Source of the DNA: a virus
Length of the DNA stretch: 44,010 nucleotides
IMG/VR virus record: IMGVR_UViG_3300045999_008377
Span: 1 to 44,010 of that record
Direction: 5' to 3' (one strand)
Position 1 is the first letter of the stretch. The number at the start of each line of letters is the position of its first letter. The notes beneath the pieces were generated by a model. That model did no database searches, had not been told where the DNA came from, and saw only the letters and a program-made list of their open reading frames with translations. The position numbers were made by a program, and so were the translations under genes. This document shows positions 28,411-29,813 of the stretch, in pieces.

Positions 28411-28554
28411 GTCTTCACGCTCCTTTGTCTACAGCATAGCATATTTATGAGAAGAGGAAAGAGGGGGGTTGCAGGCTTCGCTTGGAAAATTTGCAATTTA
28501 TACTCGCATATACAGGTACCGTTTTTGAGCCTACCCCCATAGGCAAATGATGTA
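28411..28554. other. Divergent intergenic leader, no gene
   Basis: This stretch separates terS (minus) from the plus-strand transcription unit. On either strand I see no open frame with a ribosome site beyond the terS site itself. It contains a purine-rich patch (GAGAAGAGGAAAGAGGGGGG) and a small dyad GCCTA-CCCCCA-TAGGC (28529-28544). TATAAA- and TATGCT-like hexamers occur on the minus strand without a matching -35. The late promoter should lie here but cannot be assigned. Confidence 0.5.
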
Positions 28555-28555
28555 G

Positions 28556-28605
28556 ACACTTAATAGGGTTTAAGTGTTGACAGTGTATGCAATAAATGAT
28601 ATATT
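28556..28605 (+). promoter_or_regulatory. Consensus sigma-A promoter with overlapping operators
   Basis: TTGACA (28577-28582), a 17-base spacer and TATATT (28600-28605) form a near-perfect promoter with expected start near 28612. A perfect 8-bp inverted repeat ACACTTAA (28556-28563) / TTAAGTGT (28570-28577) abuts and touches the -35. The spacer holds TGTATGCAAT (28584-28593), whose complement ATTGCATACA recurs at 29460 and 29842. Both look like protein-binding sites placed to control this promoter. Confidence 0.88.
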
Positions 28606-28611
28606 AAGAGT

Positions 28612-28958
28612 GTAAGAAATGGTTAGCGGTATTCACTAGGTGGTCGGAGCTAGTGGTATCTATGGTAGAACAAACGGTTCTTTCTCAATTGAATAAGCTA
28701 GCGACTGGCAACCGCTGGCAGGTAGGGGGTTCACTACCTAAGCAAGTAAGGGGACGACAGGAAGACGGCGTGAGACTCGCGGTCACCGAATCACGGCAAG
28801 TGTCAAATAGTAACCTAACGGTGAAGGGGCACGGCTACGGAGTGATAGGGTATACAAAGGATACCTAAAGATATGATTCTATGTTTCTTGTAGAATCTAA
28901 GGGTAGGGAAAGTATGTATATTACGGGAAGTCAATTTTACACAAATTGACAGTTTTTA
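28612..28958 (+). ncRNA. Candidate structured non-coding RNA, about 350 nt
   Basis: Between a consensus promoter and a terminator-like hairpin, the sequence has no convincing gene but is clearly richer in G and C (about 52% over 28621-28860, 60% at 28741-28800) than the AT-rich surroundings. Hairpins visible by eye: CACTAG/CTAGTG (28634-28639/28650-28655); AGAAC/GTTCT (28667-28681); GCTAGCG/CGCTGGC (28697-28703/28713-28719, one G-U pair); AGGTAG/CTACCT (28720-28725/28734-28739); CGTGA/TCACG (28769-28773/28791-28795); GGTAT/ATACC (28849-28865); GATTCTA/TAGAATC (28875-28881/28891-28897). I cannot assign a family. It is not tmRNA, RNase P, a tRNA or an obvious group I or II intron. A vague resemblance to HEARO/omega-type RNAs is from memory and unverified. 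Confidence 0.75.
28930..28957 (+). terminator. Terminator-like hairpin after the ncRNA
   Basis: GTCAATTT (28930-28937) and AAATTGAC (28943-28950) form a perfect 8-bp stem with a five-base loop, followed by AGTTTTT. It is AT-rich, so termination may be partial. Its right arm also contains TTGACA (28946-28951), so terminator and a possible -35 element overlap. Confidence 0.65.
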
Positions 28959-29050
28959 CTGTACTGAACAGTATATATTAGAACAGCTAATAAAATTGCA
29001 AGTTTTCTAAACAGTGGACACTGTCTACTGTTTAACAGGCGTTTGCAATT
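28946..29050 (+). promoter_or_regulatory. Operator-like cluster of ACAGT/ACTGT dyads before the first early gene
   Basis: Dyads seen: ACAGT-TTTT-ACTGT (28949-28962), ACTGT-ACTGA-ACAGT (28958-28972), ACAGT-GGAC-ACTGT (29011-29024) and CTGTT-T-AACAG (29028-29038). Around the later ones, AATTGCAA (28994-29001) pairs with TTGCAATT (29043-29050) and AAACAGT (29009-29015) with ACTGTTT (29027-29033). TTGACA (28946) and TATATT (28974) are 22 bases apart, too far for an ordinary promoter. A repressor/activator array or leader hairpin is likely; transcription may instead be read-through from the ncRNA promoter. Confidence 0.6.
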
Positions 29051-29082
29051 GCCTAAAAAACTCAATGGAGGATTGATTATCT

Positions 29083-29412
29083 ATGAAATTAAACAAAGTT
29101 TTTTCGATCGGTCTAAAACGTATTATGTACATTGATCAATTGTATACCAAAGTGATGGAAAATTACGGCGTAAATCCCAAAGGTTTCAATATATCAGACC
29201 TTCGGGAATTGCAACGAGTGGCAATTAAAAAATCTTGCCTCGATGCTATTCTATCGCTCAATGTAACAATCGATTATCTATACGCTCACGTTACATTTGA
29301 TAATAAGTCGTCTCAATTACAGTATGAATACGTTCATAAAAAATACAATGAGCTAAGATGCGAGTATGTACATCTATTGAATGAATTTAACCGGATAGAA
29401 TCAAGCGTGTAA
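29083..29412 (+). CDS. Hypothetical early protein, 109 aa
   Basis: A helical, mildly basic protein of unknown family (MKLNKVFSIGLKRIMYIDQLYTKV...) with two cysteines and no recognised motif. A GGAGG site lies 12 bases before the ATG. It is the first protein-coding gene on the plus arm, directly behind the ACAGT/ACTGT dyads. A regulator acting on those dyads would be one explanation of the arrangement, though no clear helix-turn-helix is visible. A parS-like site starts at the base after its stop codon. Confidence 0.65.
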   Translation: MKLNKVFSIGLKRIMYIDQLYTKVMENYGVNPKGFNISDLRELQRVAIKKSCLDAILSLNVTIDYLYAHVTFDNKSSQLQYEYVHKKYNELRCEYVHLLNEFNRIESSV

Positions 29413-29428
29413 TGTTCCACATGAAACA
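29413..29428. promoter_or_regulatory. parS-like site (host ParB/Spo0J binding)
   Basis: TGTTCCACATGAAACA matches the Bacillus chromosomal parS consensus TGTTNCACGTGAAACA at 14 of the 15 defined positions, the one difference being CACATG for CACGTG. It lies outside coding sequence at the left edge of a 500-base AT-rich gap. No ParA or ParB gene is seen in this genome, so any binding would be by host protein. Confidence 0.55.
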
Positions 29429-29813
29429 ATTTACAGATTGTCAACAAATTATGATATACATTGCATACACCGTCTTCATTGTGTCATTGTAACTTTATAC
29501 ATTGGTGGTAGTGATTTTTGTAGACGGTTTTTCGCTCCCTTTTTTTACCAGTTGAAAAAACGAAAAAAAAACTCTCTTCAAACCTAACATGACTTGTATA
29601 CTGAATCCATCTTTACCATATATTACAATTTTATTTACCAGTATATGTAAAATAAATTGTAAAATATGGAAAAAAAAATTTTTGCTAAGATGCACTTTTA
29701 CAACCGAAAAAAAAGTGCCCGTTTACAAATTAGATTCTACTCTAACTTGAAGACACTTAATCAAATATGGAAATAATTTCAATATTTAATTCCATATTAT
29801 TACAGAAACAGGC

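Follow-up and report, generated by a model that had tools for sequence, protein, structure and literature searches.

A probable structured non-coding RNA between a cos-like element and the early operon of a tailed phage

The window analysed here is a 44,010-nt stretch of tailed-phage DNA (IMG/VR record IMGVR_UViG_3300045999_008377, positions 1-44,010), and where the two gene sets of the genome diverge it probably encodes a structured non-coding RNA that has a promoter of its own (Table 1). The unit was placed there in the initial annotation, and this position holds: from 28.4 kb the late genes (terminase, portal and virion proteins) run to the left, and from 29.1 kb the early and replication genes run to the right, the early operon being roughly 13 kb long. 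The RNA unit is flanked by this operon on one side and, on the other, by a cos-like element next to the terminase genes. We are fairly confident that the RNA is real and functional, and action in cis on early transcription is somewhat favoured over action in trans.

The nearest named phages by TerL are the Paenibacillus phages SV21 and API480 (37-38% identity), and the nearest IMG/VR relatives show 51-79% identity when a fragment of the same virus is set aside. No relative of TerL was found in bacterial genomes in the prophage search used for host assignment, and thus the phage group looks virulent. One relative, L031, contains a group I intron (2178-2408, Rfam RF00028 match) within the TerL match region.

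Table 1. Positions of the predicted RNA, its parts and the neighbouring features in the window.
Feature	Position	Strand	Basis or description
Conserved cos-like element, GGGGGGTTGC...GTTTTTGAGCCTACCCCCATA (also given as GGGGTTGC...GTTTTTGAGCCTAYCCCC and GGGGTTGC...TTTTTGAGCCTAYCCCC)	28464-28542	.	Between terS and the early promoter
Predicted sigma-70/A-type promoter, extended -10	28577-28605	+	TTGACA 28577-28582, 17-nt spacer, TATATT 28600-28605, TG before the -10
Predicted non-coding RNA, about 347 nt	28612-28958	+	GC maximum, fold z -2.47, no coding signal, no Rfam match
5' end GUAAGAA, with UUUUUAC 28953-28959 as its predicted pairing partner	28612-28618	+	Mean pair probability 0.90
Predicted 5' domain: 9-bp helix 28622-28630/28711-28719 around inner helices and hairpin 28667-28681	28622-28719	+	Pair probabilities 0.55-0.96
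Predicted hairpin AGGTAG-GGGGTTCA-CTACCT	28720-28739	+	Pair probability 0.97
Predicted hairpin GACGGCG...CGCGGTC	28764-28784	+	Pair probability 0.96-0.97
Predicted branched stem ATCACGGC...GTGTC...GGCAC...GTGAT	28790-28846	+	Pair probability 0.92-0.97
Predicted stem 28850-28856/28915-28921 around hairpin 28875-28897	28850-28921	+	Pair probability 0.85-0.97
Terminator-like hairpin GTCAATTT-TACAC-AAATTGAC-AG-TTTTT	28930-28957	+	Perfect 8 bp, AT-rich, -6.6 kcal/mol
Perfect DNA palindrome TACTGT-ACTGA-ACAGTA	28957-28973	.	No second perfect palindrome of this form in the window
Inverted repeat, 13 bp, 1-nt centre	29008-29034	.	Repeat search
First early ORF downstream, 109 aa	29083-29412	+	No confident relative

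The composition of the unit sets it apart from the rest of the window. Its putative 5' end lies 7 nt after the -10 hexamer and its 3' end was placed at the T-run; GC-rich DNA spans 28612 to 28925. Positions 28612-28861 are 50% GC, with 150-nt bins of up to 57%, and exceed all 176 other 250-nt bins, which have at most 47.6%. The initial annotation had described about 250 GC-rich bases with at least seven hairpins, and the predicted fold agrees with this description: about ten helices exceed a pair probability of 0.85, and pairing covers 52% of the bases. For the entire unit the folding energy is -95.8 kcal/mol (z -2.47), a value matched by 2 of 100 shuffled sequences. The 250-nt halves taken alone gave z-scores of -1.0 and -1.8, which are unexceptional for this genome; thus folding energy alone is no proof of a structured RNA. 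In the predicted fold, pairing of the first seven bases with the T-run would join the two ends of the RNA into a closed structure. The RNA sequence is present as a single copy in its genome. A type III toxin-antitoxin RNA, which would have tandem direct repeats ahead of a terminator and a toxin gene, was considered and rejected, as there are no direct repeats inside 28612-28930.

The longest ORF in the unit is 28653-28868, which has 71 codons and a GTG or internal ATG start. A small protein gene at this site would be consistent with the open frame and with a Shine-Dalgarno-like AGGTGG upstream; however, it is very improbable. The codon adaptation (0.487) and the log-odds of this ORF are both the lowest among 17 small ORFs in the window, no match was found in Pfam or by tblastn in phages, and its IMG/VR matches come from the same virus alone. 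These results support the earlier judgement that the unit holds no credible protein.

The promoter and the terminator-like hairpin bounding the unit had both been noted from the sequence, and both are confirmed here as singular. The promoter scores 11/12, is the best site of its region and is alone in the 44 kb in having no more than one mismatch. In Markov-shuffled sequence 1.8 promoters with at most one mismatch are expected per 44 kb, or 0.18 when the TG is included, and thus the promoter is striking for its position and not for its mere existence. The remaining plus-strand promoter-like sites from 28606 to the end of the window all score 9/12, and their number is not above that in shuffled sequence. 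For this reason, the promoter at 28577-28605 is the best candidate for feeding the early operon. The terminator-like hairpin is the sole example, on both strands of the window, of a perfect 8-bp stem followed by T5 (0.05 expected per strand). Its stem has two G-C pairs, which misses the cut-off of at least three used in a standard scan, and as an AT-rich hairpin it would be a weak terminator. In addition, three copies of a TGTATGCAAT motif occur within 1.3 kb, at 28583(+), 29470(-) and 29852(-). One copy lies in the spacer of the RNA promoter and one in a minus-strand promoter-like site, and the copies are possible regulator sites.

Several features were identified between the unit and the early genes. 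The palindrome at 28957-28973 is a possible operator before the downstream gene. It overlaps a promoter-like site, TTGACA-17-CAGTAT, in which TTGACA (28946-28951) is followed after 17 nt by a poor -10 (palindrome and site together spanning 28946-28974), and the downstream gene might therefore have its own regulated promoter. The inverted repeat that follows is possibly a second operator or a hairpin. For the protein encoded at 29083-29412, tblastn against phages gave no match, IMG/VR gave one match from the same virus, and Pfam gave a sub-threshold match only. Directly after this ORF, positions 29413-29428 hold a parS-like site (host ParB/Spo0J binding), TGTTCCACATGAAACA, with one mismatch. 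Perfect parS-like sites, TGTTTCACGTGAAACA or TGTTTCACGTGGAACA, were observed in relatives at L010:63 and 925, L028:579 and L093:1048. Phage phi29 becomes trapped in spores by means of host parS sites, and a similar use by this phage would be speculation. Further downstream, 29612-29673 forms a long AT-rich inverted repeat with 27-nt arms (85%); the bin holding it has the strongest fold z-score in the window (-5.9), and it is possibly related to a replication origin.

Searches of RNA family collections placed the unit in no catalogued class. For the whole window, Rfam gave nothing at the gathering score, and a search of 28500-29080 with lax filters gave nothing relevant at E<=10, including HEARO (RF02033), GOLLD, ROOL, OLE, 6S, pRNA, RNase P and introns. 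ARAGORN detected no tRNA or tmRNA in the window, and a scan of the main proteins and many of the small ones revealed no IscB/TnpB-like gene. Thus, the initial view that the RNA falls outside the tmRNA, RNase P, 6S, pRNA and intron families is upheld, and its loose resemblance to HEARO/omega-type guide RNAs is not. A similar size and hairpin count is all that speaks for that resemblance; given the results above, it is hardly credible that the unit is a guide RNA of the HEARO/omega type or belongs to any other catalogued class (6S, pRNA, RNase P, tmRNA, intron, GOLLD or ROOL).

Homologues, which the initial annotation had hoped to collect by nucleotide search, were likewise not recovered. Against phages and plasmids, blastn gave short chance matches only. 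Two six-frame seeded scans and one 17-mer scan of IMG/VR returned only the fragment of the same virus (5.3 kb, one base different in 5291); a second 17-mer scan additionally returned three contigs, each by a lone 17-21-nt match. A scan of bacterial genomes gave nothing. Covariance models built from a single sequence, one for the 5' domain and one for the 3' part, gave nothing significant in 77 sources, the window included, and the 5'-domain model gave nothing significant in 33 phage records. The fast divergence of such RNAs limits the reach of all these searches, and within this reach the RNA is, by sequence, an orphan beyond the same-virus fragment. Short matches in two further records, G002 and G010, were rejected as homologues because they are located in coding frames. 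A 71-aa ORF in the same slot of API480 and SV21 was considered as an RNA in disguise and was rejected, since it reads as a protein gene and is nearly identical in both phages.

The slot itself was compared among relatives. The cos-like element beside terS has the same arrangement in the window and in L003, L004, L005, L007, L011 and L021, with 20 invariant columns, and from its position it is probably the cos or packaging site. In the closest relatives, L003 and L005, the promoter after this element leads straight into early genes and the window RNA is absent; short leaders or protein genes follow the element in L003, L005, L010, L016, L017 and L075. In L065/L068, L028/L029, L026, L021, L024, L071 and L079, sigma-70-like promoters are followed by non-coding, GC-rich DNA of about 230-650 nt. 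At least six lineages of TerL relatives hold other GC-rich non-coding leaders in this slot. By sequence and by covariance model alike, no similarity of these leaders to the window RNA was detectable, and between lineages they are also dissimilar, barring short matches such as that of L071 with L079. The long leader ends at a Shine-Dalgarno sequence and an ORF in L065/L068, L028/L029 and L024. In L026 a promoter lies between the RNA and the next gene, and in both L026 and L079 promoter-RNA units are followed by further promoters.

Two pairs of leaders could be aligned for signs of conserved pairing. Between L065 and L068, reading frames are broken by single-base indels, and one hairpin stays paired through two double changes (G-C to A-U). 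The L028/L029 alignment holds two further double changes. The fold of the L065 leader (z -0.8) is no better than that of shuffled sequence. With two sequences per lineage, these compensatory changes are suggestive, not conclusive. A match of L118 to the L028/L029 motif was rejected as chance. Other arrangements were also observed in the relatives: after the cos-like site, L079 and L071 carry arrays of a promoter and a short GC-rich non-coding unit, which have in common a GCCCRCTGGGGCGGC hairpin and a GAAACGACTTTCTTCTATTA motif, and in L010 the first early gene is preceded by four similar promoters in tandem (GTGTTGACA...), spaced at about 105 bp.

The role proposed for the RNA is that of a lineage-specific 5' leader of the early transcription unit. 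Host RNA polymerase would start at the first rightward early promoter, beside the packaging site, at the very start of infection. Some transcripts would stop at the weak intrinsic terminator, giving a folded RNA of about 347 nt, and the remaining transcripts would read through into the early genes from 29083 onward. The folded leader would decide in cis the passage of the terminator and the processivity of polymerase into the early operon, acting as an RNA-only antiterminator or attenuator. Put of phage HK022 provides an established precedent for RNA-only antitermination (PMC9378689). We infer the transcription, the RNA ends, the read-through and the cis role alike, and the cis role appears to us to have close to an even chance. 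It is suggested by the best-in-window bounding signals, by the GC peak without coding signal and by the sole strong promoter for the early operon. It is also suggested by the relatives, in which the slot promoter leads into early genes directly or through long leaders and, from this layout, would drive them, and by the L065/L068 hairpin that stays paired while reading frames are broken.

Points against a cis leader are the modest fold z-score, the still lower one of the L065 leader, the lack of a homologue in the searches above, the possible separate promoter downstream and the promoter that follows the RNA in L026; no mutually exclusive antiterminator pairing was established. In addition, a terminator inside the operon is equally expected for a free-standing early RNA that ends at 28957 and acts in trans on a host target such as polymerase, the ribosome, a nuclease or a defence system, with the downstream genes on their own operator-controlled promoter. 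Such an RNA would account for the unit having a promoter and a terminator of its own and for the operator-like palindrome overlapping TTGACA-17-CAGTAT just downstream, and the promoter-RNA units that precede further promoters in L026 and L079 are in line with it. The fast, lineage-specific turnover in the slot would suit an arms race, and the early cluster adjoining the terminase genes of SV21 and API480 includes an ArdA antirestriction gene. However, the terminator is weak, the downstream promoter is poor and in other relatives the RNA runs on into the first early mRNA without a break. Neither a target nor any complementarity was found, perfect complements in the rest of the window reaching 11 nt at most, and we regard the trans-acting RNA as the main rival, though a rather unlikely one. 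The RNA unit keeps its own promoter, but the stand-alone status that the initial annotation had raised as a possibility is uncertain given the weak terminator, the lack of another strong early promoter and the several relatives in which the comparable RNA is a 5' leader. Lastly, 28612-28958 may be no functional RNA at all but a GC-rich spacer, or a DNA element that serves packaging or replication or was recently acquired, lying behind the early promoter by chance. The moderate fold z-score, the lack of homologues and the absence of the RNA in L003 and L005 are consistent with this. It is nevertheless improbable, as neither bounding signal has an equal in the window and at least six other lineages have GC-rich non-coding DNA in this slot.

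Phage RNAs that act as the very first product of an infection are few, and for most of the large structured ones no function is known. Should it be real, the RNA described here and its unrelated positional counterparts would be short promoter-defined loci for RNA-only control of polymerase or RNA-based counter-defence. A slot by the packaging site with differing non-coding RNAs in different lineages was absent from the initial annotation and is the more interesting lead. A broader proposal, which we put forward as doubtful, is that structured RNAs are rapidly exchanged at this slot across the large phage group, where the differing first-made long RNA of each lineage would act on host transcription or defence and the window RNA would represent a previously undescribed class.

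The window RNA was compared with several known systems. GOLLD and ROOL are large structured phage RNAs of unknown function, about 600 to >800 nt long, which are often near tRNA islands and form Rfam families (PMC12286853); in contrast, the window RNA is about 347 nt long and matches no Rfam family, and the window has no tRNAs. Like HEARO/omega RNA (RF02033), it is a structured non-coding RNA of a few hundred nt, but it has no covariance-model match and no IscB/TnpB-like partner among the proteins scanned. It also differs from phi29-type pRNA, as there is no Rfam match and TerL, TerS and a cos-like element are present here. The early leaders of the relatives noted above share its slot, GC-richness and non-coding nature, but not its sequence. 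A further parallel is with HK022 put, in which RNA-only antitermination takes place just after early phage promoters; putL and putR are about 70 nt long, with two stem-loops, and are two similar copies, one after each of the opposite early promoters (PMC9378689). The predicted 5' end of the window RNA falls 7 nt past the -10 hexamer of the first promoter in the rightward direction, as put would lead one to expect, but it is about 347 nt long, has about ten helices and is present in a single copy. It is therefore not filed as put, because the length and the two-copy arrangement fail. Like put, however, it is a predicted structured phage RNA just after an early promoter and before terminator-bearing early genes, and it would need no phage protein; thus, by analogy, it may work in a similar way.
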